Shown: positions 2,271 through 14,603 of the stretch, piece by piece
Numbering within the stretch: position 1 is the stretch's first letter
Layout: every line of letters starts with the position of its first letter
NCBI RefSeq assembly: GCF_900091625.1
Contig: NZ_FMIC01000002.1
Coordinates: forward strand, 7,205,547 to 7,269,546
Direction of reading: 5' to 3'
Source: Micromonospora peucetia
Lineage (GTDB): Bacteria > Actinomycetota > Actinomycetes > Mycobacteriales > Micromonosporaceae
Length of the DNA stretch: 64,000 nt
Program-made: the position numbers and the translations under genes
The notes under the pieces: generated by a model
The model's input: only the letters and a program-made list of their open reading frames with translations
The model's database searches: none
What the model was told of the DNA's origin: nothing

Positions 2271-4868
2271 TCATCCGGTGAACGAGCCGGCGAGTTCGAG
2301 CCGGCTGCGTACGCCGAGCTTGTGGTAAGAGCGCTGTAGGTGGTTCTCCACGGTTCGTACCGACAGACGCAGCCGGTGGGCGATCGCGGTGTTGTCCAGC
2401 CCGGTGGCGGCCAGTTCGCAGATCTCGCGTTCCCGGCCGGTCAGCGGGCTCGGCGCGGACTCGACCTGCCCGCACCACGCCGGCCAGTACGCGTCGCAGC
2501 GCCGCCGCAGCTTCTCGGCGCGCGCGGCGTGCGCATTGGCGGCGCGGTGCTCGCCGCGCCCGCGCCGGGCCGTCCCGGCGGCGACGGTCGTCTCCAGCAC
2601 CAGGGTGGTGTATCCCCCTTCGTCGAACGTTGCGGCCAGCCGCTCCAGCGCGTCGGGGTCCGGCCGGGCGAGCGCGGCGGCCAGGTCGGCGTGCAGACGG
2701 AAGAGCGGGCTGTCGCAGGCGTCGGCGACCTGTCGCAGCTCCGAGGCGGCCGACGCGGACGGCGACACCCGGGAGAGCAGGTGCAGGGCCTGCGCGGCGA
2801 TGGTGAGCACGCCGTTCTCGCGGGCCCGCGCGGCCAGCGCGACGAGCTGCCCGGCCGCGACGGCGAGCCGCCCCTCGGAGACGTGGGTCCAGGCCTCGGC
2901 GAGGCCCCAGAAGTCGGCGGGCCCGCTGTGCGTGGGAAACCGCCCACCCAGCTCGTCGCGTACCTCCCTGACGTCGCGCGCCTCACCGGCCTGCGCGGCG
3001 AACCACGCGCCCACCGACAGGACGTAGCCGCGGATGGGAAACAGCGTCCGCCCGTCGACGAGGGCGCGGGCCTCGCGCAGCCAGCGCAGCGCGTCCCGCA
3101 GCCGCCCCCGGTGGTAGCGGCAGTTGCCGACCATCAGGGCGAGCAGGGCGACGCCGTCGGACGAGCCCCGGTCGACCGCGTCCAGGTAGTAGGCCTCCGC
3201 CGACTCCGTCGCCTGGGTCAGGTTTCCGGACATCACCAGCGCCTGCACGTGCAGGGCCTGGGTGGCGGCGCGCATGGTGGGCCAGGCCTGCGGGAAGGTG
3301 ACCTCGGCTCCGTCGAACATCGCCGCGGCGCGGGCCGGCTCGCCGGAGAAGACCAGCAGGTAGGGCAGGAGCGGGGTGCCGGCCATGCCCAGCAGCGGGT
3401 CGCGCGGCGGATGCTGGCCGAGGCGGGTGACGGCGTCGCGCCCCTCGGCTGTCCGGCCGTCGAAGACGGCCATCGCGGCGACCGCGGTCAGCAGCCCGTC
3501 GTGCACGGCGGCGGGCAGTGCCGCCGCCGCGTCGGCGAGCACAGCACCGGCGGCCCCGGGGCGGCGCAGCCCCCAGAACAGGTTCACCGCCCGCAGCGCC
3601 GCCGTCTCGGCTCGGTCGCGCGGGTCGTCCAGCGTCTCGTACGCCCTGCGCAGGTGCTCGTCGGCCTCCTCGCCGCGACCCTGCGCGACCAGGGCACGGC
3701 CGAGCTGGCGGGCGCCCCGGGGCGAGGCGACCCGACGGGCGAGCCGTTCGGCGAGGCGGGCCCCGCGCCGCAGCAGCGCCGACTCGGAGGCGGCCAGCAG
3801 GTCCGCCTCGTCGACCGCGAGGTCGGCCTCGCACCGCCACGACACCACGCGCAGGTGGTCCTCGTGCCGCGCCGTGGAGGTGGCTTCCAGGGCGTCCGCC
3901 AGTTCGCGCAGGATGCGGCGGGTGCGCAGCGCACCGGTGCTCGCGCGGGCCGCCTCGGCGTAGAGCGGATGCGTCACCCGGACCAGGCCGCGCTGCTCGC
4001 CGGTGGTCAGTTCGATGAGTCCCCGCTCCTCCAGCCGCTCGGCGACCTGTGCCGGGACGAGTCGCTCGATGACGGGCAGCGGCGCGGGCTCGCCGTGCGC
4101 GACGTACTGCAACGCTTCGATCTCGTCGGGGCCGAGCAGGCTGAGCGTCTCGGCGATGAGATCGTTCAGGTGCGGATGCTCCAGCGGGGTTCCACGCCAG
4201 GTCCACACGCCGCGTCGCCGGGCGAGGGCGCCGGTCTGTTGCCCGCCGCGCAGCATCTCCCGCAGGAACAGGGGGTTGCCGCGTACGGCCTGCCAGATGG
4301 TGGCGAGGGTCAGGCCGTCGGTGGGCCCGCCGAGCATCGCCTGGACGAGTTCGGCTGTCTCCTCCTGGCTCATCGCCGCCAGTTGCACGCGCTCGACGGG
4401 GCCCTGGCGACGCAGGGCGGTGACGGCCGGGCTGGCGACCGCCTCGCTGCGGGCGCTGGCGAGAACCCGTACCGCCTCGCCGGCCACCAGCCGCTCGAGC
4501 AGCGCCGACGAGGCGTCGTCGAGCCAGTTCACGTCGTCGACGACGACGAGGACCGGCCGGTGCCCGGCGATGGCGCGCAGCCTGGTGGCGATGTCACGGA
4601 AGGCCTCGGCGACCGAAGGGCCCACCGGCTGGGCGACGAGCTGGGCGAGCACCCCGAAGGGCACACTCTGCCAGCCCGGCGTCGCCGTCACGCGCAGCGC
4701 CAGGAAGCCCCGCCGTTCCGCCTCGCCCAGGACCTCCGTGGCCAGGCGGCTCTTGCCGATCCCGGCCTCCCCGGTGACGAGCGTGCACCGGGTCACGCCG
4801 CCGGTCAGGCTGTCGGTCAGCCGGTCCAGCTCCCGCCGCCGCCCGACGAGTGGCCATGATGTGGACAA
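2271..4868 (-). CDS. LuxR-family transcriptional regulator, LAL type with AAA ATPase domain
   Basis: A large ATP-binding regulator of the LAL/MalT class, about 865 residues. The N-terminal AAA domain has Walker A (GEAGIGKSR, about residues 34-42) and Walker B (VLVVVDDVNWLDD). A long alpha-helical TPR-like middle follows. The last 60 residues are a LuxR/GerE helix-turn-helix (LTGREREICELAATGLDNT). I place the start at the TTG at 4868 because GGGAGG precedes it by six bases; an in-frame TTG at 4886 lacks such a site. It reads away from the lanthipeptide precursor gene and is a candidate pathway regulator. LAL proteins commonly control natural-product clusters. Confidence 0.88.
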   Translation of the reverse strand: MSTSWPLVGRRRELDRLTDSLTGGVTRCTLVTGEAGIGKSRLATEVLGEAERRGFLALRVTATPGWQSVPFGVLAQLVAQPVGPSVAEAFRDIATRLRAIAGHRPVLVVVDDVNWLDDASSALLERLVAGEAVRVLASARSEAVASPAVTALRRQGPVERVQLAAMSQEETAELVQAMLGGPTDGLTLATIWQAVRGNPLFLREMLRGGQQTGALARRRGVWTWRGTPLEHPHLNDLIAETLSLLGPDEIEALQYVAHGEPAPLPVIERLVPAQVAERLEERGLIELTTGEQRGLVRVTHPLYAEAARASTGALRTRRILRELADALEATSTARHEDHLRVVSWRCEADLAVDEADLLAASESALLRRGARLAERLARRVASPRGARQLGRALVAQGRGEEADEHLRRAYETLDDPRDRAETAALRAVNLFWGLRRPGAAGAVLADAAAALPAAVHDGLLTAVAAMAVFDGRTAEGRDAVTRLGQHPPRDPLLGMAGTPLLPYLLVFSGEPARAAAMFDGAEVTFPQAWPTMRAATQALHVQALVMSGNLTQATESAEAYYLDAVDRGSSDGVALLALMVGNCRYHRGRLRDALRWLREARALVDGRTLFPIRGYVLSVGAWFAAQAGEARDVREVRDELGGRFPTHSGPADFWGLAEAWTHVSEGRLAVAAGQLVALAARARENGVLTIAAQALHLLSRVSPSASAASELRQVADACDSPLFRLHADLAAALARPDPDALERLAATFDEGGYTTLVLETTVAAGTARRGRGEHRAANAHAARAEKLRRRCDAYWPAWCGQVESAPSPLTGREREICELAATGLDNTAIAHRLRLSVRTVENHLQRSYHKLGVRSRLELAGSFTG

Positions 4869-5232
4869 CGGTTCCCTCCCCCACAAGACGGTCTGCCGTG
4901 ACAGACGCTGTCAGCGGCGCGCGAGGTTGTCGGCGGGGATGACGGTAGGGCAACCGCGATCGTTGAGTACCGGGTTCTTCCGGCCCTGAGTAGCCCCGCC
5001 GACCACCACGTACGCATGCCGACCTGCGCATGTAGCTAATTTTCAGGGAAGGCGCCATCTCGCGGCGTCAGGTTTCAGACACCGTCGCCCGGGTCGCGTC
5101 GCGAACCCGGCGGTGACTGTTTCGCGACTGCGATGGAGTACCGGCTACTCACGCCCCGCCCCCTGCGCTCGGCGAGTCTCAGATGGACGGACCGCGGCAC
5201 CCGGCCGCCGGTCGCCACCGAGGAGGAACCAG
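4869..5232. other. intergenic region between LAL regulator and lanA
   Basis: About 360 bp between two divergent genes. I see no convincing gene. It must hold the promoters of the LAL gene and of the lanthipeptide operon. The only AT-rich patch is near 5030-5047 (tagctaattttc). I could not recognise a clear -35/-10 pair or operator. AGGAGG at 5221-5226 is the strong ribosome-binding site of the precursor gene. Confidence 0.5.
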
Positions 5233-5412
5233 ATGTCGATCACCGATGTCGTCCGCGCCTGGAAGGACGAGTACTACCGGGGCGAGGCGTCGCCCGACCA
5301 CCCCGCCGGGCTGGTCGAGCTGAGCCGCGAGGAACTGGAGACGGTCGCCGGCGGCATGGCGCCGATCGACGGGCACACCGAGAAGTGCTGCCACTGCATG
5401 TCGCCCTGCTGA
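5233..5412 (+). CDS. lanA: class II lanthipeptide precursor (mersacidin/lichenicidin-type leader)
   Basis: A 59-residue precursor starting at an ATG six bases after AGGAGG. The leader has the VVRAWKDEYYRG opening and a helical LSREELETVAGG end typical of the mersacidin/lichenicidin family. Cleavage after the double glycine (residues 40-41) by the C39 peptidase of the adjacent LanT would release the 18-residue core MAPIDGHTEKCCHCMSPC. Only Thr49 and Ser57 can be dehydrated, while Cys52, 53, 55 and 59 can donate thiols, so at most two thioether links form and some Cys must stay free, pair as a disulfide or be decarboxylated. The C-terminal Cys fits the LanD gene downstream. It is first in an operon with lanM, lanT and lanD. 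Confidence 0.9.
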   Translation: MSITDVVRAWKDEYYRGEASPDHPAGLVELSREELETVAGGMAPIDGHTEKCCHCMSPC

Positions 5413-5430
5413 CCTGTCCATCACGGCGAC

Positions 5431-5467
5431 TGCGCCGGAGCCCGGCCACCGGCCGGGCTCCGGCGCA
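5431..5467. terminator. 17-bp hairpin between lanA and lanM (attenuating terminator)
   Basis: TGCGCCGGAGCCCGGCC is followed after three bases by its exact reverse complement. The hairpin begins 18 bases after the precursor stop codon and ends 23 bases before lanM. Such hairpins in lantibiotic operons let most transcripts stop after the precursor gene and a fraction read on into the enzymes. That role here is inferred. Confidence 0.75.
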
Positions 5468-5490
5468 CCGCCCTCACCCGAGGATCGGCG

Positions 5491-8400
5491 ATGACTGTTG
5501 GGTTCCTACCCGCCCTCTCGCTCACCGAGCGCGTCCCGGTCGACGGGGCCGGCTCGTACCCCGTCTCCGACCGCGCGCGCTGGCGGCTCTCCCGGTGGCG
5601 CGGCTCGCAGGCCTTCGCCACCGCCGGAGCCTGGCAACGCCGCCTGGCCGCCGACGCGTGCGACGAGGACGCCCTGCTGCGCCTGCTCGACGAGCCCGCC
5701 GCGCGGATCGCGGAGCGGCTCGCACACCCCCCGGACTGGTCACGACGGTTGCAGCGCCTGTACTCCGGGCCGGCCGCGGACGACTGGCGCCCCGAGCGGC
5801 TGCCGGGACGGCCGCTCGACGACGCCCTGATCATCGCCGCCCCGATCCTCGCCGACGCCCGCCGCCGGGTCCGCGAGGCGGCGGCGGAACTGGCCGGCCC
5901 CGCCACCCCCGTCGATCCGCGGACCGCTGACACGCTCGGCATCGCCGACCTGCTCGACGAGCTGGTCCGGCTGCTCAGCCGCGCGAGCGTGCTGGAGCTG
6001 AACGTCGCCCGCGTGCGCGGCGAGCTGACCGGGCAGACGCCGGCGCAGCGGTTCGCCGCCTTCTTCGCCGGGATGGCGCAACCCTCGGCCGCCTCGGAAT
6101 TCCTCGCCGAGTACCCCGTGCTGGCCCGCCAACTCCTGGCCGTCGTCGACGCCTGGGCATCGTCCACCATCGAGTTCCTGCGGCGGCTGCACGCCGACTG
6201 GGCCGCGATCGCGCCGGCTCTCGACATGGATCCGCGCGTGCGGCTCACCGGGCTCACACCCGCCGGTGACGCCCACCGGGGTGGTCGCCGGGTGTGCCTC
6301 GCCAGCTTCGACGACGGTTCACGGGTGGTCTACAAGCCCCGCGACCTCGGCGTGGACGCCCGTTTCCAACTGCTGTTGGGCTGGCTCAACCGGCGGGACC
6401 CCGACCTGGGCCTGCGCACCATCGCGGTGCTGACGCGCGACGGCTACGGCTGGGCCGAGTTCGTCGCCGCCACCGAACCGACGGCCGTCTCCCGCTACGC
6501 CCGCCGCTACGGGAGCCTGCTCGCCCTGCTGCACACGCTGGGCGCCAGCGACTGCCACCCCCGCAACGTGGTGGGTGCCGGCGACACGCCGGTGCTCGTC
6601 GACCTGGAGACCCTGTTCACCCCGGCGCTGACGCGCGGTTCCCGTGACGCCGCCGCCGGCGAGGCCGTCGCCGCCTCCGTGCTCGCCGTCGGCCTGTTGC
6701 CCGCCGCCGAGCAACCGGCGGGCGAGGCCGCGGCGTGCAACTGCGCCGAATGGCTCGGCGCCGGCACCGACGAGATGCAGCTGCACGTCCCGGGCGTACA
6801 CATCGGGCACGGGACACCGGCCGCTCCCGAGGGCGTCCGACCCGCCGACCTGCGCGCGCACGAGGCCGACGTCGTCGCCGGCTTCCGCCACGCGTACGAC
6901 CTGCTGCACCGCCACGCCGGGGTGCTGGCCGACCGGGTACGCGCCTTCGCCGGTGACGAGATCCGAGTGGTCCTGCGCCCGACGCGCACCTACGCCCGGC
7001 TCCAGGAGGCGCTGCTGCACACCGACCACCTGCGCGACGCGCTCGACCGGGACCGGCTGCTGGACTGGCTCTGGGTCGGCGTGGAGGAGCTGCCGGTCCT
7101 CGCCACCACGATCGCCGCCGAGCGCGCCGACCTGGCCGCCGGGGACACGCCGCTGTTCACGTCCAGGGTCGGCTCCCGCGGGCTGTGGACCGGCGACGCC
7201 CAGCAGTTGCCCGGCGCGCTGGCCCGCTCGGCGTTGGACGAGACACTGCGCCGCATCGCCGGCCTGGGCGAGGCAGACCAGGAACGCCAGGTCTGGCTCA
7301 TCCGTGCCGCGTTCGCGTCGCTGGCCGAGCTGCCCGACGCCCCGCACGCCGAGGTGCGCTGGCGTCCCGGGCCGGTGCCGGTCGAGCCGTCCGCGTTCCG
7401 GCCGTTGCTGGCGCATGCCGCCGAGGTCGGCGAGCGGGTCGCGGCGATGGCCCACGGCGGGACCTGGTTCACGTTCGGCCCCACCGTGGGGGCCCGCTGG
7501 GCGCCGGTCCCGATGGGCGCCGGCCTCTACGACGGCCTGTCGGGCCTGGCCCTCTTCTACGGTTACCTGGGAGAGACGACCGGGCACGAGGACTTCACCG
7601 ACCTGGCCGCCGGGATCGCGCGAAGGCTCGGCGACCGGCTGCGCGCCGACGGGCTCCCCACGACCGCCGTCGGCGCGTTCAACGGCTGGGGCGGCCTGTG
7701 CTACGCGTACGGTCACCTGGCCACCCTGTGGGACGACGACCCGGGCATCCGCTCCGGCCTGGACCTGGCGCTCAGCCGGTTGGAGGCCCTCGCCGACGAC
7801 GCCGACGACGCCGACGTGGTCAACGGGCTGGCCGGCGCGGTGCTCGCCGTGCTGGCGTGCGGCGCGGACCCGCAGCGCACGGTCGACCTGGCACGCCGCC
7901 TCGGTGACCGCCTCCTCGCGACGGGCCCGGCGCTCCGGCTGGGCGGCCTGTCCCACGGCGCCGCCGGGGTGGCGGCGGCGCTGTTCGAGTTGTGGAGCGT
8001 CACCGGTGAGGACCGCTACGCCGAGGCGGGACGGTCCGCGCTGGAGTTCGACCGCTCGCTGTTCGACCCGGCCTCGGGCAACTGGGCGGATCTGCGCCGG
8101 CCAGGCCTGCTCAGCAACGCCTGGTGCCACGGCGCGCCCGGGATCGGGCTGTCGCGGGTGCGGATCCGGCAGGCGCTGACCCGCCGCCCGCTGCCGCTGC
8201 TCGACGGCCTCGACGCCGAGATCGCGGTGGCGCTGGGTACGACGTTCACGCACGGCTTCGGGCGCAACCACTCCCTGTGCCACGGCGATCTCGGCAACCT
8301 CGACCTGCCGCTGCTCGCCGGGTCCGACCCGGCGGCGGTCGGCGCGGTCGTCGACGGCGTGCTGCGCGACGTGGCCGCCCACGGGTGGCGCTGCGCCAAT

Positions 8401-8520
8401 CCGGCCGGGCTCGACTCGCCGGAGCTGATGACCGGGCTGGCCGGGATCGGGTACCAGTTGATGCGGCTGGCGGAGCCGGAACGCGTGCCGTCGCTGCTGA
8501 CCCTGGCGGGCACCCCGTGA
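5491..8520 (+). CDS. lanM: class II lanthionine synthetase LanM
   Basis: A 1009-residue bifunctional enzyme, full length for LanM. It phosphorylates and eliminates Ser/Thr of the precursor core and then adds Cys thiols across the dehydro residues. The N-terminal DUF4135 dehydratase shows the kinase-like residues Lys282 (YKPRD), Asp354-Cys-His356..Asn359 and the DLET motif at 371-374. The C-terminal cyclase has the LanC zinc ligands Cys879 (WCHGAPG), Cys930 and His931 (LCHGDLG). It starts at ATG 5491 after GAGGATCGGCG. Its stop overlaps the lanT start (GTGA). The substrate is almost certainly the 59-residue peptide encoded just upstream. Confidence 0.96.
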   Translation: MTVGFLPALSLTERVPVDGAGSYPVSDRARWRLSRWRGSQAFATAGAWQRRLAADACDEDALLRLLDEPAARIAERLAHPPDWSRRLQRLYSGPAADDWRPERLPGRPLDDALIIAAPILADARRRVREAAAELAGPATPVDPRTADTLGIADLLDELVRLLSRASVLELNVARVRGELTGQTPAQRFAAFFAGMAQPSAASEFLAEYPVLARQLLAVVDAWASSTIEFLRRLHADWAAIAPALDMDPRVRLTGLTPAGDAHRGGRRVCLASFDDGSRVVYKPRDLGVDARFQLLLGWLNRRDPDLGLRTIAVLTRDGYGWAEFVAATEPTAVSRYARRYGSLLALLHTLGASDCHPRNVVGAGDTPVLVDLETLFTPALTRGSRDAAAGEAVAASVLAVGLLPAAEQPAGEAAACNCAEWLGAGTDEMQLHVPGVHIGHGTPAAPEGVRPADLRAHEADVVAGFRHAYDLLHRHAGVLADRVRAFAGDEIRVVLRPTRTYARLQEALLHTDHLRDALDRDRLLDWLWVGVEELPVLATTIAAERADLAAGDTPLFTSRVGSRGLWTGDAQQLPGALARSALDETLRRIAGLGEADQERQVWLIRAAFASLAELPDAPHAEVRWRPGPVPVEPSAFRPLLAHAAEVGERVAAMAHGGTWFTFGPTVGARWAPVPMGAGLYDGLSGLALFYGYLGETTGHEDFTDLAAGIARRLGDRLRADGLPTTAVGAFNGWGGLCYAYGHLATLWDDDPGIRSGLDLALSRLEALADDADDADVVNGLAGAVLAVLACGADPQRTVDLARRLGDRLLATGPALRLGGLSHGAAGVAAALFELWSVTGEDRYAEAGRSALEFDRSLFDPASGNWADLRRPGLLSNAWCHGAPGIGLSRVRIRQALTRRPLPLLDGLDAEIAVALGTTFTHGFGRNHSLCHGDLGNLDLPLLAGSDPAAVGAVVDGVLRDVAAHGWRCANPAGLDSPELMTGLAGIGYQLMRLAEPERVPSLLTLAGTP

Positions 8521-10751
8521 GGCGGCGCCGCCGGGTGCCCGTCGTCCTGCAGATGACCGACGCCGACTGCGGTGCCGCCTGCCTCGCGATGGTCCTGCGC
8601 CATGCCGGCGTCCGCGCCTCGCTCGCCGGGTGCCGCGAGCACCTCGGCGTGGGCCGCGACGGGGTCAGTGCGCTGGCCCTGCTGGACGCGGCAGAGGAGA
8701 TGGGACTGCGCGCGAGCGCCTACCGGGCGGCCCCGGAGGATCTCGTGTCGCTGCCGATGCCGCTGATCGCACACTGGGAGGGCTCGCACTTCGTCGTGGT
8801 GGAGCACCTCACCCGGCACGGGTTCTCGATGGTGGACCCCGCCCTGGGCCGCAGGACCGTCCCGTTCGCCGAGGCGGCCGAGTTCCTCACCGGCACCGTG
8901 CTGGTCTTCACCGGTCGTACGACGACAGCCGGCCCGGCCAGGCTCGCCGCGGGCCCCCGTACGCCGTGGCTGCGCCGCGGCTACCGGATGGCGCGCGCGT
9001 TCCTGCCGGCGCTGGGGACGGTCCTGTCCGTCTCCGTGGTCCTGCAACTGCTCGGGCTCGCCCTGCCGCTGGCCATGTCGACCGCCCTCGACGCGATCCT
9101 GCCCGCACGGGAGACCGGGCTGCTGCCCTATCTCGGCCTGGCCGTGCTGGCGCTGGCCCTGACCCAGTTCGGCCTGGCGCACCTGCGTTCGATGCTGCTG
9201 GTGAACCTCCAGTCCCGGGTGGACCGGGAGCTGATGACCCGGCTGTTCGCCCACCTGATGAGCCTGCCGTTCCGCTTCTTCCAGCAGCGCTCCAGCGGGG
9301 ACCTGATGCAGCGGCTGGCGAGCAGCGTGCTGCTGCGGGAGATCGTGACGACGCAGGTGCTGACCGCCGTGATCGACGGCGCGCTGGTGGTCGGGTACTT
9401 CGCGGTGCTGTTCGTCGCCGACACCGGGTTCGCCACGGTGGCGTTGGGGATCGGTCTGGTCCAGGTGTGTGCGGTCGCGGCGGTCAACCGCCGTCTGCTG
9501 CACCTCAACCACCGCCAGCTCACCGTGCAGGCGGAGGCGGAGAGCGTGCTCATCGAGGCGCTGTCGGGTATCGCCACCATCAAGTCGATGGGCGCCGAGA
9601 AACACGTGTACGACCACTGGCTGGGCCGTTACTCGGCGGCGCTCGCGGTGGATCGCGCGCGCAGCCGGCTGTCGTCGACCGTCGACAACGTGGCGGCGAC
9701 CGTACGGCTCGTGGGGCCGCTGGCCCTGCTGTGGCTGGGCATGTACCGGATCTTCGCCGACGGCATGAGCCTGGGTGACGCGATGGGCCTGCAGATGCTG
9801 GCGCTGGCCGCGATCGCCCCGCTGGGTTCGCTGGTCGCCAGCGCACAGGTGCTCCAGTCGGTCGCCTCGACCGTGCAGCGGCTGCGTGACGTGTTCTCCG
9901 CCCGGCCCGAGATCGAGGACACGTCGCAACTGCTGTCACCGACGCTGCGCGGAAGGGTCGAGGTACGTGGGCTCAGTTTCCGGTACGACGGCACCGGCCC
10001 GTACGTGCTGCGGGACGTCTCGTTCACCGTCGAGCCGGGCCGGACGGTGGCGGTCGTCGGCGCCTCGGGCAGTGGCAAGAGCACCCTGGCGATGCTGCTG
10101 ACCGGGCTCTACCGGCCCACCGGCGGCCGGATCCACTTCGACGGGGTGCCGCTGGAACGCATCGGCCCGGACGCCCTGCGCCGCCAGTTCGGCGTGGTGT
10201 TCCAGGAGAGCTACCTGTTCCGGGACTCGATCCGGCGCAACATCGCCCTCGCCCGGCCGGACCTGCCCCTGGCGGACGTGCGGCGGGTCGCCCGGCTGGC
10301 CGCCATCGACGCCGACATCGAGGCGATGCCGATGCGCTACGACACCCGGGTCGCCGAGCGCGGCCAGGCACTCTCGGGCGGGCAGCGACAACGGCTGTCC
10401 ATCGCCCGGGCGCTCGCCGGTGAGCCGGCGATCCTGCTGCTGGACGAGGCGACGAGCCACCTGGACGTGGCCACGGAACGACGGGTGAGCCGGGCCGTCG
10501 CGGGGCTGCGCTGCACCCAGATCATCATCGCGCACCGGCTGAGCACGGTGCGGCACGCCGACGAGATCCTCGTGCTCGACGGCGGCACGGTCGCCGAGCG
10601 CGGCGGCCACGACGAGTTGCTGGCGCTCGGCGGCAGGTACGCCGACCTGGTCCACGCACAGCTCGACACCCAGGCCGACCCACAGACAGACGCACAGGCC
10701 GACGGGCCGCCGGAGCATGAGCCGGCCGTCGCCGGAGGGAGTCACCGATGA
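8517..10751 (+). CDS. lanT: lanthipeptide exporter with C39 leader peptidase, LanT
   Basis: A 744-residue AMS-type ABC transporter that cleaves the leader after Gly-Gly and exports the product. The N-terminal C39 peptidase has its catalytic Cys18 (TDADCGAAC) and later the His (GSHFVVVEH) and Asp (VDPALG). A six-helix membrane domain follows, then an ATPase with Walker A (GASGSGKST, about 514-522), signature LSGGQRQRL (about 619) and Walker B (ILLLDEATS). I choose the GTG at 8517, which overlaps the lanM stop and places the peptidase at the N terminus. The longer upstream frame lies inside lanM. Confidence 0.95.
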   Translation: MRRRRRVPVVLQMTDADCGAACLAMVLRHAGVRASLAGCREHLGVGRDGVSALALLDAAEEMGLRASAYRAAPEDLVSLPMPLIAHWEGSHFVVVEHLTRHGFSMVDPALGRRTVPFAEAAEFLTGTVLVFTGRTTTAGPARLAAGPRTPWLRRGYRMARAFLPALGTVLSVSVVLQLLGLALPLAMSTALDAILPARETGLLPYLGLAVLALALTQFGLAHLRSMLLVNLQSRVDRELMTRLFAHLMSLPFRFFQQRSSGDLMQRLASSVLLREIVTTQVLTAVIDGALVVGYFAVLFVADTGFATVALGIGLVQVCAVAAVNRRLLHLNHRQLTVQAEAESVLIEALSGIATIKSMGAEKHVYDHWLGRYSAALAVDRARSRLSSTVDNVAATVRLVGPLALLWLGMYRIFADGMSLGDAMGLQMLALAAIAPLGSLVASAQVLQSVASTVQRLRDVFSARPEIEDTSQLLSPTLRGRVEVRGLSFRYDGTGPYVLRDVSFTVEPGRTVAVVGASGSGKSTLAMLLTGLYRPTGGRIHFDGVPLERIGPDALRRQFGVVFQESYLFRDSIRRNIALARPDLPLADVRRVARLAAIDADIEAMPMRYDTRVAERGQALSGGQRQRLSIARALAGEPAILLLDEATSHLDVATERRVSRAVAGLRCTQIIIAHRLSTVRHADEILVLDGGTVAERGGHDELLALGGRYADLVHAQLDTQADPQTDAQADGPPEHEPAVAGGSHR

Positions 10752-11344
10752 GCGTCACGTTGCCGTTCGAGCGGGTCCTCGTCGCCGCCTGCGGATCAAG
10801 CGGCGCCATGTCGCTGCCGCAGTCGCTGCTGGCGATGAGGCACGCGCTCGGTCTCGAGGTGCGGGTGGTGATGACCGAGGCCGCCTCGACGTTCGTGACC
10901 CCCACGGCCCTCGCGGCGATCACCGGCCACCCGGTGACCGTCGAGGAGGCCCATGGGCAGCCCGGGGTTCCCCACCTGGACCTGACCGAGTGGGCACAGC
11001 TGGTGCTCGTGCTGCCCGCCACCGCCAACACCCTGGCCAAGGCGGCGCTGGGCATGGCCGACAACCTGGTCACGGCGTGCGTGCTGGCCTCGGCGGCGCC
11101 CGTGGTGTTCGTACCCGCGATGAACGTGCGGATGTGGGAGAAGCCCGCCGTCCAGCGCAATGTCGCGCAGTTGCGCGCGGACGGGTACGGCGTCGTGCCC
11201 CCCTCGCGGGTGATCGCGCTCAGCTCCGGCACGGCCACCGGCATCGGCGTGCCCGGCATCGAGACGGTGCTGGAGTGGACGGTGGGCCACCTGACGTCGA
11301 CCGGGTCCGGTGCGGGCGTGGACGGGGCGGCCTCCGATGGCTGA
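10748..11344 (+). CDS. lanD: HFCD-family flavoprotein, peptidyl-cysteine decarboxylase LanD
   Basis: A 198-residue flavin enzyme of the EpiD/MrsD family, which oxidatively decarboxylates a C-terminal Cys to an enethiol used for aminovinyl-cysteine (AviCys). The three hallmarks are present: active-site His76 (GVPHLDL), the flavin-binding PATANT (90-95) and the substrate-clamp PAMN (123-126). Its ATG overlaps the lanT stop (ATGA), so it is translationally coupled to the lanthipeptide genes. The precursor core ends in Cys, as this enzyme needs. A PPC decarboxylase of CoA biosynthesis is the alternative, but those are usually fused to CoaB and not in such operons. Confidence 0.92.
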   Translation: MSVTLPFERVLVAACGSSGAMSLPQSLLAMRHALGLEVRVVMTEAASTFVTPTALAAITGHPVTVEEAHGQPGVPHLDLTEWAQLVLVLPATANTLAKAALGMADNLVTACVLASAAPVVFVPAMNVRMWEKPAVQRNVAQLRADGYGVVPPSRVIALSSGTATGIGVPGIETVLEWTVGHLTSTGSGAGVDGAASDG

Positions 11345-11975
11345 CCCCCTCGGGCGCGAGGCGCGGGCGACACGGTGGGTGGCGGGGCTGATGGCGCTGC
11401 TGGGCGTCGGCCTGCTCGGCTGGGTGGCGGTGCCGGTCGCACGGCAGCGGCTGGCGCCGCCCGCGCCGATCGCGTCGTTCGGGGTGGCCGGGACGGCGGC
11501 CGGCTGCGATCCGGAGCTGACCGACCCGGTGTCGGGCAAGGGGGTACACGTCGGGCGTGGGGCGCGCGTCGCCTACCTGACGGTGCCGCCGTCGTCCGGG
11601 CCGCACTACGAGCTGCCCGCGCCGATGCGCCGGTTCTATCTCAGCGGTGACCGGCCCCCGGTGGAGGTGCTGGTGCACAACCTGGAGCACGGCTACACGG
11701 TGGTCTGGTACTCGGACGACCTGCCGGCGCCCCAGGTGGAGGCCCTGCGCGGCCTGGCCGCGAGGCTCGGCGCCGACGAGCGGACCGCCAAGTTCGTCGC
11801 CGCGCCGTGGGACGAGGCCTACGGCCGGTTCCCGCCGGGGCGCCGCGTCGGCATCAGCCGCTGGGGCGCCACCGCCGGCTACCGCCTGCTGTGCGAATCG
11901 GTCAGCGGCGCCGTCATCGAACGTTTCCTCGCCGCCCACCCGCCGACCGACTCGCCCGAACCGGAGGGGGCGTGA
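11337..11975 (+). CDS. DUF3105 membrane-anchored protein in lanthipeptide operon
   Basis: A 212-residue protein with one N-terminal membrane helix (about residues 15-36) and an extracytoplasmic DUF3105 domain, recognised by SSGPHYELPAP and EVLVHNLEHGYTVVWY with conserved His residues. The start ATG at 11337 lies inside the last codons of lanD, an 8-base overlap that argues for co-translation. The family has no established biochemical role. The His-rich core suggests metal or cofactor binding. In this operon it could act in export, immunity or late maturation; all three are guesses. Confidence 0.8.
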   Translation: MADPLGREARATRWVAGLMALLGVGLLGWVAVPVARQRLAPPAPIASFGVAGTAAGCDPELTDPVSGKGVHVGRGARVAYLTVPPSSGPHYELPAPMRRFYLSGDRPPVEVLVHNLEHGYTVVWYSDDLPAPQVEALRGLAARLGADERTAKFVAAPWDEAYGRFPPGRRVGISRWGATAGYRLLCESVSGAVIERFLAAHPPTDSPEPEGA

Positions 11976-12026: not shown

Positions 12027-13655
12027 TCAGCCCACCTTGGGTACGGCCCGGGAGATGATCGCGGTGAAATCGACACCGCGGGGCAGCGTGCCGTACGCCT
12101 GGCCGTGGTCGCCGCCGAGCCGGGAGACGCAGAAGGCGTCGGCGACGGCGGGGTGGCCGTGCCGCACCAGCAGCGAGCCCTGAAGAACCAGGGCGAGCCG
12201 TTCGACGACGCGGCGGGCCCGCAGTTCGAGGTCGTCCTGGTCGGACAGGTCGGCCCGCACCTGGCGTACGGCGGCGTCGAGTCGCGCGTCGGTGCCGGCG
12301 GCGGCGGTCACCTCGGCCTGGAACGCCGCCATGACCTCGGGTTCCCGGGTGAGGGCGCGCAACACGTCCAGCGCGGCGACGTTGCCGGAACCCTCCCAGA
12401 TCGAGTTCAGCGGGGACTCGCGGAACAGCCTCGGCAGGCCCGACTCCTCGACGTAGCCGTTGCCGCCCAGGCATTCGAGGGCCTCGGCGGCGTGTCCCGG
12501 CCAGCGCTTGCAGACCCAGTACTTGCCGACGGCGAGGGCGAGCCGCTTGAACGCGGTCTCGCCGGCGTCGCCGCGCGCGGACCGGTCGGTGGCTCCGGCG
12601 AGCCGCATCATGAGCACGGTGGCGGCCTCGGACTCGACCGCAAGGTCGGCGAGCACGTTGCGCATCAGGGGCTGGTCGACGAGGTACCGGCCGAATGCCT
12701 GCCGGTGGGCGGCGTGGTGGGCAGCGGTGATCACGCCCTGGCGCATCCCGGCCGCCGCGCCGATGACGCAGTCCAGGCGGGTGAGGTTGACCATGTCGAT
12801 GATGGTGCGCACGCCACGCCCCTCGTCCCCGACCCGCCAGGCGACCGCGTGCTCGTACTCGACCTCGGCCGAGGCGTTGGACCGGTTGCCGAGCTTGTCC
12901 TTGAGGCGCATCAGCCGCATCGGGTTGCGCGTGCCGTCCGGCAGGACGCGCGGGACGAGGAAGCAGGTGAGCCCGCCCGGCGCCTGGGCGAGGGTGAGGA
13001 AGACGTCGCACATCGGCGCCGACGTGAACCACTTGTGCCCGAGGAGCCGGTAGGTGCCGTCCGGCTCGGGGTGGGCGGTGGTGGTGTTGGCGCGTACGTC
13101 CGAGCCGCCCTGCTTCTCCGTCATCGACATGCCGGCCAGCAGTCCCCGCTTGGCCAACGGCGGGCGCAGCCCGAAGTCGTACGTGGTGGCGGTGAGCAGC
13201 GGCTCGTACGTCGCGGCCAACTCCGGGGCGTGCCGCAGCGCCGGCACGGCGGCGTAGGTCATCGAGATCGGGCAGCCGTGACCGGCGTCCGGACGCCAGG
13301 TGTAGAACTTGGCCGCCCGCGCGACGTGGGCGCCCGGCCGGTCGTCCGCCCACGGCGCGGCGTGCAGGCCGTGGGTGACCGCGACCCGCATCAGCTCGTG
13401 CCAGGCGGGGTGGAACTCCACCTCGTCGATGCGGCGGCCGTGCCGGTCGTGGGTGCGCAGGACCGGCGGGTGTTCGTTGGCCAGCCGCCCGTGGTCGATC
13501 GCCGGCTCGGCGCCGCCGAGCCGGCCGAGCTCGTGCAACTCGGCGGCGGCCCAGCCGGCGCCCTCGCGTTCGAGCCCGTCGAGCAGTGCCGGGTCGTCCG
13601 CCGCGTCGTAGCCGGCCAGCGGGGGAACCTGGTTGAAGACCTCGTGCGTCGTCAC
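12027..13655 (-). CDS. acyl-CoA dehydrogenase, AidB/DNA-alkylation-response type
   Basis: A 542-residue FAD-dependent acyl-CoA dehydrogenase homologue, matching AidB in length. The N-terminal ANEHPPVLRTHDRHGRRIDE block and FHPAWHELM are characteristic of the AidB branch rather than of ordinary 380-residue enzymes. AidB has weak isovaleryl-CoA dehydrogenase activity and binds DNA during the response to alkylation. I start it at GTG 13655, which overlaps the stop of the TetR gene upstream (GTGA). The two genes form an operon, so the TetR protein likely controls both. A role in branched-chain fatty acid oxidation is equally possible. Confidence 0.88.
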   Translation of the reverse strand: MTTHEVFNQVPPLAGYDAADDPALLDGLEREGAGWAAAELHELGRLGGAEPAIDHGRLANEHPPVLRTHDRHGRRIDEVEFHPAWHELMRVAVTHGLHAAPWADDRPGAHVARAAKFYTWRPDAGHGCPISMTYAAVPALRHAPELAATYEPLLTATTYDFGLRPPLAKRGLLAGMSMTEKQGGSDVRANTTTAHPEPDGTYRLLGHKWFTSAPMCDVFLTLAQAPGGLTCFLVPRVLPDGTRNPMRLMRLKDKLGNRSNASAEVEYEHAVAWRVGDEGRGVRTIIDMVNLTRLDCVIGAAAGMRQGVITAAHHAAHRQAFGRYLVDQPLMRNVLADLAVESEAATVLMMRLAGATDRSARGDAGETAFKRLALAVGKYWVCKRWPGHAAEALECLGGNGYVEESGLPRLFRESPLNSIWEGSGNVAALDVLRALTREPEVMAAFQAEVTAAAGTDARLDAAVRQVRADLSDQDDLELRARRVVERLALVLQGSLLVRHGHPAVADAFCVSRLGGDHGQAYGTLPRGVDFTAIISRAVPKVG

Positions 13656-14251
13656 GGCGACACTCCCAACGCGCGGTGGAGAAACGTGATCAGGTGGGCG
13701 TTGGTGTCCGGGCCGGCGACCCCGGCGGCCAGGGGGCCGACCATGGCCTCGGCCAGGGCGCCGACCAACGCGGTGGCGGTCAGCTCGGGATCCTGCGGGG
13801 GAAGCTCGCCGCTCGCCACCCCCTCCGCGACGTGACCGGCGATCAGCTCGGCGTACGCCCGGCGGAAGACGAGCCGCTCGGCGTCGACCGCCGGATCGGC
13901 CGGCTCGGCGAGCAGCGCGTACGCCAGTCGTGGGGACCGCAGCGCCCGGCCGGAGAACGTCTCGACGATGGTGGACACCCGTTCGGCGACGGTGGTCTCC
14001 AGCGCCGCCGCACGGGCGACCGCGTCCACCTCGCGCTGCGAGGCCGTGCGGAACACCTCGGCGACCAGGTCTGCCTTGGTGGGGAAATGCCGGTAGACGC
14101 TGCCGGTCGCCAGCCTGGCCCGCTCGGCGACGGCGACGACGGAGCAGCCGGCGTACCCGTGCTCGGCCATGAGCTCCAGCGCGGCGGCGATGATCCGCTC
14201 CCGGGAGGCGCTCAGCCGGGCCTTCACGCGATCGGTGCTCCGGTAGACCAC
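13652..14251 (-). CDS. TetR-family regulator of the AidB-like gene
   Basis: A 199-residue regulator with an N-terminal TetR helix-turn-helix (RERIIAAALELMAEHGYAG, then ATGSVYRHFPTKADL) and a helical ligand domain. The GTG start at 14251 is almost immediately downstream of a perfect 11-bp inverted repeat, which would make it autoregulated. It overlaps the start of the acyl-CoA dehydrogenase gene by four bases. Regulators next to acyl-CoA dehydrogenases often sense acyl-CoA thioesters; that ligand is inferred. Confidence 0.88.
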   Translation of the reverse strand: MVYRSTDRVKARLSASRERIIAAALELMAEHGYAGCSVVAVAERARLATGSVYRHFPTKADLVAEVFRTASQREVDAVARAAALETTVAERVSTIVETFSGRALRSPRLAYALLAEPADPAVDAERLVFRRAYAELIAGHVAEGVASGELPPQDPELTATALVGALAEAMVGPLAAGVAGPDTNAHLITFLHRALGVSP

Positions 14252-14252
14252 G

Positions 14253-14280
14253 CAAGGATTGAACCATCATTCAATCCTTG
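14253..14280. promoter_or_regulatory. perfect palindromic TetR operator
   Basis: CAAGGATTGAA, six bases (CCATCA), then TTCAATCCTTG: an exact 11-bp inverted repeat. It begins two bases upstream of the GTG start of the TetR gene, so the bound repressor would cover its own transcription or translation start. Confidence 0.8.
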
Positions 14281-14437
14281 CCGGCAAGACATCGTCGTAC
14301 GAGCCGTCAGGGCTTGGCGCCGCTTCGGTTACTCAGCCGGCGCCTGTCCCGGGTGCTCCGCCATGCCGCCGGGTGATCCGCGCCCGGTGGGGCGGTGGTG
14401 CTCGCCGGGCCGGCCGGCGGGCGAAAGCGTCTCGTAC

Positions 14438-14534
14438 GACGCTGTCGAGCTGAGTCGTCTGCGACATCAGGCGGTCTGGGCCGCTGTGGCACCAGACGGC
14501 GGTGAATCGTCTGCGACATCAGCTCGACAGCGTC
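14438..14534. repeat. nested inverted and direct repeats
   Basis: GACGCTGTCGAGCTGA at 14438-14453 is exactly reverse-complemented at 14519-14534. Inside, TCGTCTGCGACATCAG occurs twice in direct orientation (14455-14470, 14507-14522), and a short GTCTGG/CCAGAC pair lies in the middle. The block occupies an otherwise gene-free stretch from 14281 to 14571. It resembles a small mobile-element remnant or a cruciform-forming site. Confidence 0.7.
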
Positions 14535-14571
14535 CCGCGTGCGGATCCCCCACCGGCCGACACCGAGCAGA

Positions 14572-14603
14572 AAGGCCACCTCCCGGTCTCGGAAGGTGGC
14601 CTT
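14572..14603. terminator. hairpin terminator downstream of SapA-like gene
   Basis: AAGGCCACCT and AGGTGGCCTT form a perfect 10-bp stem with a 12-base loop, 53 bases after the stop of the minus-strand SapA-like gene. Confidence 0.65.

Follow-up and report, generated by a model that had tools for sequence, protein, structure and literature searches.

Mersacidin is a class II lanthipeptide with AviMeCys whose core ends in C-x-C, and the AviCys ring spans 3 residues in epidermin and 5 in mersacidin; a core motif of the C-T-x-T-x-E-C type marks the mersacidin-type lipid II binders. AviCys families have been mined by the pairing of a flavoprotein with a small peptide, which yielded 1172 clusters in 67 families; the main text of that study gives as the rule for such clusters that the C-terminal Cys is decarboxylated to an enethiol adding to Dha or Dhb, and describes a sistertide ring between Thr29 and Cys34, with a span of 5 (PMC11162475). 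Micromonospora has 0 occurrences in this main text. Noursin is described as a copper-binding class III lanthipeptide possessing one Cys, labionin and His-butyrine links (PMC10206099).

The 64,000-nucleotide stretch of Micromonospora peucetia DNA analysed here (the window) contains a self-contained class II lanthipeptide cassette, probably one of Micromonospora-like actinobacteria (Table 1); its genes, their motifs, their conservation and the cassette boundary are seen directly. It resembles the families in the main text of PMC11162475 in that a PF02441 flavoprotein adjoins a precursor with a terminal Cys. It resembles the mersacidin system in LanM, C39 LanT, LanD (MrsD there) and the leader family TIGR03898, and the C-x-C end recurs in the short cores of its relatives, whereas the Thr/Ser pattern of the family is unrelated and a DUF3105 gene and a LAL regulator are added.

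Table 1. Features of the lanthipeptide cassette in the window
Feature	Position	Strand	Description and basis
LuxR-family (LAL-type) regulator, divergent	2271..4886	-	871 aa; AAA_16 ATPase and C-terminal GerE HTH (Pfam)
lanA precursor	5233..5412	+	59 aa; leader residues 1-41 with GG at its end, core residues 42-59, MAPIDGHTEKCCHCMSPC; TIGR03898, alignment of 12, dN/dS
lanA-lanM spacer	5413..5490	+	17-bp perfect G+C-rich hairpin; fold and relatives' spacers
LanM	5491..8520	+	1009 aa; dehydratase and LanC-like cyclase; family models, motifs
LanT	8517..10751	+	C39 peptidase, membrane domain and ABC ATPase (Pfam); probable start GTG 8517, 4-bp overlap with the lanM stop
LanD, predicted FMN-type Cys decarboxylase	10748..11344	+	198 aa; Flavoprotein PF02441; start overlaps the lanT stop
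DUF3105 protein	11337..11975	+	212 aa; one N-terminal hydrophobic segment (by eye); Pfam; start overlaps the lanD stop

Six genes in identical order, with differing flanks, were present in all 10 relatives whose loci were recovered in full. The earlier note had drawn the cassette from 5233 to 11344; its lanA-lanM-lanT-lanD content stands, the four genes being all present and intact in appearance by family models and motifs, but the unit is larger and also includes the DUF3105 gene and the regulator. Each of the 11 related loci recovered, including one on a contig that ends in lanM, had the regulator beside the precursor, and the DUF3105 gene directly followed lanD in the 10 full-length ones. 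Broken genes were observed in two relatives, namely LanM (3 stops when read straight through) and the regulator (split over two frames in L077) of G159, and DUF3105 (likewise split, in L078) of G151; this may reflect local decay of the cassette or errors of assembly. An EmrB-type exporter (508-2088) and two genes from 12030 to 14251 were rejected as members, being refound, within the stretches fetched, in the nearest relative (G082) only. The spacer hairpin had a folding energy of -53.5 kcal/mol (z -6.5; 0 of 200 shuffles equally stable), and perfect stems of 11-16 bp occurred in 10 of 11 relatives, the other (L079) having at most 6 bp unbroken; the hairpin is probably an attenuator.

The precursor scored 44.9 bits against TIGR03898, the NCBIfam mersacidin/lichenicidin leader model (cut-off 23.5), and its translation bore out the previously claimed core, in which Cys occurs four times and Thr and Ser once each, with a Cys at the C-terminus. 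Precursors of this kind numbered 12 among 354 genomes of one bacterial family; the presence in 12 genomes and dN/dS values (window versus G082) of 0.13 (precursor) and 0.16 (LanD) indicate that it is more than a chance reading frame. In samples of 397 order and 394 class genomes, the DNA pattern for H-T-x-x-C-C-H-C revealed no new members, its four matches besides known ones (L155-L158) translating to unrelated frames. When 296 genomes of the class were searched with a profile, the protein searches scoring no more than about 20 candidates per genome, one other leader (G706) appeared, with a different core. Three core types were found, MxPIDGHTEKCCHCMSPC, AAIDGHTSMCCHCVC and AAATTGHTTACCHCVC, corresponding to three LanM groups, each starred in a tree (100/99, 100/100, 100/100) whose rows were trimmed to tblastn ends, with starts as aligned rather than checked. 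The contig of one aligned precursor (L080, G132) stops inside lanM, and this locus was left out of the LanD, DUF3105 and LanM-tree sets. In all 12 aligned precursors G-H-T-x-x-C-C-H-C...C was kept, with Thr49, Cys52, Cys53, Cys55, the terminal Cys and both His unchanged; among the eight AAATTGHTTACCHCVC precursors, core differences summed over 28 pairs were 37 synonymous and 0 non-synonymous. The core strings were not found in the literature searched, which included the AviCys mining study without its supplements, in agreement with the earlier note, whose author knew of no described lantibiotic with a CCHCMSPC end.

LanM scored 672 bits against TIGR03897 (cut-off 304) and 47.6 bits against the class III LanKC model (cut-off 575). 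Its DUF4135 dehydratase contained YKPR, SDCHPRNV, VDLETLF and RPT and its LanC-like cyclase WCHG and LCHG, presumably with catalytic and zinc-binding roles, respectively, placing the cassette in class II. For LanD, the best solved relatives were 7cfu and MrsD, with EpiD also matched, and H76, PATANT and P-x-M-N-x-x-M-W, which we take to be active-site residues, were unchanged in 11 aligned LanD; such a decarboxylase and a C-terminal Cys in the precursor are both features of AviCys/AviMeCys peptides. A Cys in some CoaC enzymes serves as their mark, but it could not be used to separate LanD from CoaC because the genome's own, separate CoaBC (L175) lacks that Cys too. In a LanD tree, most forks were open and long branches met, and the tree carries no weight in the argument. 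LanD and DUF3105 were absent (E <= 1e-3) from all 64 other loci searched that had LanM or related precursors; therefore, the two go with the GHTxxCCHC-type core. Ten loci with two precursors and a LanM of 30-34% identity, Streptomyces and Glycomyces among them, likewise gave no LanD or DUF3105 match, and are probably of the two-component type.

The product is probably a short Cys/His-rich cyclic peptide with its last Cys trimmed chemically. Its modifications, ring pattern and export cut we infer as follows. LanM would dehydrate Thr49, together with Ser57 in the window or Thr/Ser50 in relatives, and close thioethers onto the Cys cluster; LanD would oxidatively decarboxylate the terminal Cys59 to an enethiol, and LanT would cleave after Gly41 and export the peptide. 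The enethiol and dehydrated Thr49 would form an AviMeCys ring of 9 residues in the short cores and 11 in the window, the second dehydrated residue would pair with one of Cys52, Cys53 and Cys55, and the two remaining Cys would be free, in a disulfide or metal ligands. For the window core, full dehydration and decarboxylation give a computed M of 1879.712 and [M+2H]2+ of 940.863; the computed M is 1925.717 for loss of two waters alone and 1877.696 when the decarboxylated form also has one disulfide. With four Cys against two Ser/Thr, at least two Cys are left without a thioether partner; the earlier note was thus right that some are left over, but its one or two was too low.

Earlier, both Thr49 and Ser57 had been offered as ring partners. 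Thr49 is the sole core Ser/Thr common to all 12 precursors and therefore the sole partner that the family could share; a LanM-LanT-LanD product with a large AviMeCys ring from the Cys59 enethiol to Thr49 is the reading we tentatively prefer, at somewhat less than an even chance. Ser57 was limited to the window and G082. A small S-P-C AviCys ring, in which the enethiol would close onto the nearby Ser57, gains some plausibility from the window having Ser57 instead of the Ser/Thr50 of its relatives, which may reflect a shift in where the second dehydratable residue lies; however, Ser57-Pro58 is missing from 10 of 12 precursors, even though the nine LanD aligned from such relatives are 61-65% identical to that of the window, and a two-residue step with Pro would presumably be highly strained. 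Ser57 is thus ruled out as the family-wide partner, an S-P-C ring cannot be what the family makes in common, and we regard this ring as highly improbable. To our knowledge, a Pro ahead of the C-terminal Cys, as at Cys59, is unusual in LanD substrates, which weighs against the preferred reading.

The preferred Thr49 ring is unusual in size. No precursor (0 of 12, all three core types) had a Ser or Thr 3 or 5 residues ahead of the terminal Cys, the spacings of the AviCys rings known to us though no formal requirement, the distances being at least 7 in the short cores and 2 and 10 in the window; therefore, either an Avi(Me)Cys ring of 8-11 residues forms or the enethiol stays open. We know of no precedent for such a ring of 9-11 residues. 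The spacing predicts a ring larger than the known ones, or a metal-gripping peptide. It also bears on the possibility of an antibiotic that, like mersacidin, binds lipid II and has rings of the ordinary kind, with DUF3105 as immunity protein: the leader family, the MrsD-like LanD and the position of DUF3105 as the only cassette gene left for immunity, with no other candidate shared in the flanks (by eye), are consistent with it, but the C-T-x-T-x-E-C type motif is, by reading, absent from all 12 cores and no Thr lies five residues ahead of the last Cys, so that we consider it unlikely. That LanD is idle or serves another precursor, leaving a plain lanthipeptide with a free C-terminal Cys, is conceivable since decarboxylation is predicted from the genes; it seems very improbable given that all 10 full-length relatives have LanD together with the precursor, that its motifs are unchanged in the 11 aligned, and that the last Cys is retained in all 12 precursors despite a two-residue shift.

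The invariant His and Cys, together with the common DUF3105 proteins usually lying beside DUF305 proteins of the CopM type, make a metal-binding product a serious, though not a likely, rival. Here the enethiol would not, or not only, be cyclised, and with the invariant Cys/His would form a soft-metal (copper/zinc) site, while DUF3105, with invariant His and probably anchored outside the cell, would be the partner of metal or peptide. The earlier reading of class II genes with a LanD holds, but it took no account of the open enethiol, the pair of invariant His or the DUF3105 gene. H71, H90, H114, E117 and H118 were unchanged in an alignment of 27 DUF3105, which included 17 proteins from 16 of the 30 loci with the common DUF3105 and left out the split L078 copy. 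At least 36 of 44 DUF3105 places (41 genomes) had a DUF305 place no more than 1.5 kb away, a minimum since all 44 DUF3105 places were counted but, among the DUF305 places listed, roughly the stronger half; in L170, an accessory DUF3105/DUF305 pair stood beside a heavy-metal P-type ATPase and a DsbD/cupredoxin protein. The DUF305 protein CopM binds copper (PMC4335983). Against this, it is the common DUF3105 that shows the pairing; the cassette copy shares 20-27% identity with the 17 common proteins aligned, and none of the five copies below 110 bits, including that of the cassette, had a DUF305 neighbour among the matches listed; moreover, the cassette contains no metal gene and none is common to its flanks (by eye). 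DUF3105 was not named in the literature searched.

Cyanobacterial LanM clusters offer a further comparison. Their precursors have related leaders and Cys/His-rich cores, and ZnuA, CobW, P-type ATPase and cation efflux genes lie near 6 of 15 loci examined (L180, L181, L222, L223, L224 and L226); one core, from Dolichospermum, shares HT-x-x-C-x-H-C, a match in 1 of 32 cores versus 0 of 2000 shuffled sets. However, this motif was picked after the window had been seen, and overall the cores resemble each other little: of 500 shuffles, 40, 14 and 71 scored as high as the three core types; the 32 cores had some duplicates and GG-less precursors dropped and some near-identical pairs kept. These clusters also lack LanD and DUF3105 and carry HlyD in their place, several of them with an OprB/SLH porin as well, and core homology with the window family is unproven. 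Noursin (PMC10206099) is similar in having a short lanthipeptide core with His and Thr, but it is made by a class III synthetase, in contrast to the class II LanM here, and differs in its single Cys and its links; metal binding by the present product is a rival hypothesis. A lanthipeptide metallophore, in which the enethiol would be kept wholly or partly as a soft-metal ligand next to the invariant Cys and His and DUF3105 would act at the cell surface on the complex of metal and peptide, appears quite improbable. The enethiol ligands of methanobactin are a chemical precedent for metal binding.

Nature thus provides, in the three core types, a ready-made set for probing the reach of the LanD enethiol: either there are Avi(Me)Cys rings of 8-11 residues, or LanD is there for something other than ring closure. 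The cassette is also the first biosynthetic context known to us for a DUF3105 protein, and the connection with metals that it suggests for lanthipeptides can be tested. If the metallophore reading were true, the product would be, as far as we know, the first of its kind from LanM and LanD and the first metal-binding use of an AviCys-type decarboxylase, and the metal-linked cyanobacterial lanthipeptides would represent a parallel branch.

The precursor, LanM, LanT and complete LanD described in the earlier note were all present with family-model or Pfam matches (see table), and stop-to-start overlaps, by the coordinates read in the window, joined lanM, lanT, lanD and the DUF3105 gene. The window corresponded to G000:C2:7205547-7269546 of a 7.37 Mb genome on two contigs. 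LicM2 was alignable over LanM residues 117-1005, and LanM possessed the motifs YKPR, SDCHPRNV, VDLETLF and RPT as well as the zinc motifs WCHG and LCHG, the roles of which we assume from the work on CylM. Three LanM proteins of this genome, including that of the cassette, exceeded the family cut-off; the other two full-length genes were located at G000:C2:4606537-4609221 and G000:C2:4789375-4792008. Solved structures related to LanD were 7cfu (E 5e-38), MrsD (2e-25) and EpiD (1e-16). H76, PATANT and P-x-M-N-x-x-M-W, presumably with the roles known in EpiD/MrsD, were retained and invariant across an alignment of 11 sequences, and CoaBC was encoded separately. The lanA-lanM spacer contained a G+C-rich hairpin with a 17-bp stem (z -6.5), which was represented in relatives by perfect stems of 11-16 bp in 10 of 11 and of 6 bp in locus L079; it is probably an attenuator letting the precursor outnumber the enzymes.

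Features of the cassette (window positions) and of locus L179 on the second contig (positions within the locus)
Feature	Position	Match or remark
precursor lanA	5233-5412	TIGR03898 leader, 44.9 bits (cut-off 23.5)
lanM	5491-8520	TIGR03897, 672 bits
lanT	8517-10751	Pfam C39 peptidase + ABC
lanD	10748-11344	Pfam Flavoprotein
DUF3105 gene	11337-11975	Pfam DUF3105
LAL-type regulator	4886-2271	divergent; Pfam AAA_16 + GerE
L179 ORF	6459-6599	
L179 radical SAM	6643-8088	
L179 flavoprotein	8096-8689	

Among 160 genomes from the genus, 10 encoded close kin of the precursor, the window counted, as did 12 of 354 at family level. The order regulator-precursor-LanM-LanT-LanD-DUF3105 was kept in all ten relatives recovered over the whole unit; in an eleventh (L080) the contig stops within lanM and gene order agrees up to there. 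Neighbours outside the cassette differed by eye. Broken genes occurred in two of the ten, LanM with three stops in a single frame and a regulator split over two frames in G159 (L077, 2944-5627 and 6274-9317), and DUF3105 split over two frames in G151 (L078, 11961-12489), reflecting either decay or assembly error. A search of 64 further loci, 49 of which came from the LanM search while 13 were cyanobacterial and 2 plasmid loci, gave no match to LanD or DUF3105 at E <= 1e-3.

The 12 precursors had three core types, MAPIDGHTEKCCHCMSPC / MPPIDGHTEKCCHCMSPC in the window and its nearest relative G082, AAIDGHTSMCCHCVC in G272 and G266, and AAATTGHTTACCHCVC (AAATT... forms) in eight genomes, which coincided with three LanM groups, each starred in a LanM tree constructed without G132. 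G47, H48, T49, C52, C53, H54, C55 and the terminal Cys were invariant in all 12, while the window and G082 had a Ser57-Pro58 insertion of their own and were missing the Thr/Ser50 of the others. The eight AAATT... cores showed 37 synonymous versus 0 non-synonymous differences (28 pairs summed); both kinds occurred in their leaders. Between window and G082, dN/dS was 0.13 for the precursor, 0.36 for LanM, 0.22 for LanT, 0.16 for LanD and 0.30 for DUF3105.

Because the window core has 2 Ser/Thr versus 4 Cys, at least two Cys are predicted to lack a thioether; unpaired Cys had been expected earlier, and their number, given as one or two, is hereby corrected. In the AviCys rings of epidermin and mersacidin, Ser/Thr-to-Cys spacing is 3 or 5. 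None of the cores had Ser/Thr at 3 or 5 before the last Cys, the nearest standing 7 and 8 residues ahead in short cores and 2 and 10 in the window core. Sistertide has a Thr29/Cys34 AviCys pair (PMC11162475). If a single partner serves the whole precursor family, it would be Thr49, with a ring of 9 or 11 residues; if there is none, the enethiol would be put to other use. The S-P-C ring first proposed is possible in 2 of 12 genomes alone, and the Thr49 option proposed with it is the only family-wide one.

On the second contig (96 kb), L179 (G000:C1:57000-74000) encoded a LanD-like flavoprotein after a radical SAM protein (Pfam), preceded by a 47-aa ORF ending in GGPADRNVNVIC. The trio may fit the AviCamCys type, a flavoprotein with radical SAM mentioned in PMC11162475. 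Recurring KTPARAG/PRACGDD translations at 13182-14587 were CRISPR-array-like in appearance.

Several features suggest a candidate metal-binding product. Both His and all Cys of the core were invariant, as were H71, H90, H114, E117 and H118 in 27 DUF3105 sequences. At least 36 of 44 DUF3105 places (41 genomes) had a DUF305 place within 1.5 kb, a floor given the partial DUF305 list, although the eight without such a neighbour included all five copies below 110 bits, among them that of the cassette. The DUF305 protein CopM binds copper (PMC4335983), and in L170 (3-5331) an accessory DUF3105-DUF305 pair had a DsbD_2/cupredoxin protein and a heavy-metal P-type ATPase (HMA + E1-E2) as neighbours. 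Precursors with related leaders occurred in 22 of 234 genomes of one cyanobacterial order (Dolichospermum match, E 1e-9 over residues 1-55), many with Cys/His-rich cores, and ZnuA, CobW, P-type ATPase or cation-efflux genes lay near 6 of 15 loci in the part of the genes scanned. HT..C.HC was found in 1 of 32 cores versus 0 of 2000 shuffled sets, but this motif was chosen after the fact, and the core alignment was weak: of 500 shuffles, 40 (window), 14 (AAATT) and 71 (AAID) scored as well. Metal binding is thus suggested, no more. Cyanobacterial LanM clusters L180, L181 and L216-L228, with HlyD, Cys/His-rich cores and often OprB/SLH porins, are lanthipeptide metallophore candidates. Noursin, the first copper-binding lanthipeptide according to its own paper (PMC10206099), was the sole one among the literature matches listed for metal and lanthipeptide.

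In the literature searched, GHTTACCHC, CCHCVC, TEKCCHC, HTSMCCHC and DUF3105 were not found, nor was CCHCMSPC, in agreement with the earlier note, which knew no lantibiotic with this end. A mining study grouped 1172 clusters into 67 AviCys families (PMC11162475), and the family of the cassette may be among its 67 logos. We class the cassette as a new LanD-containing variant among the class II lanthipeptides, and its product as a putative AviCys peptide.
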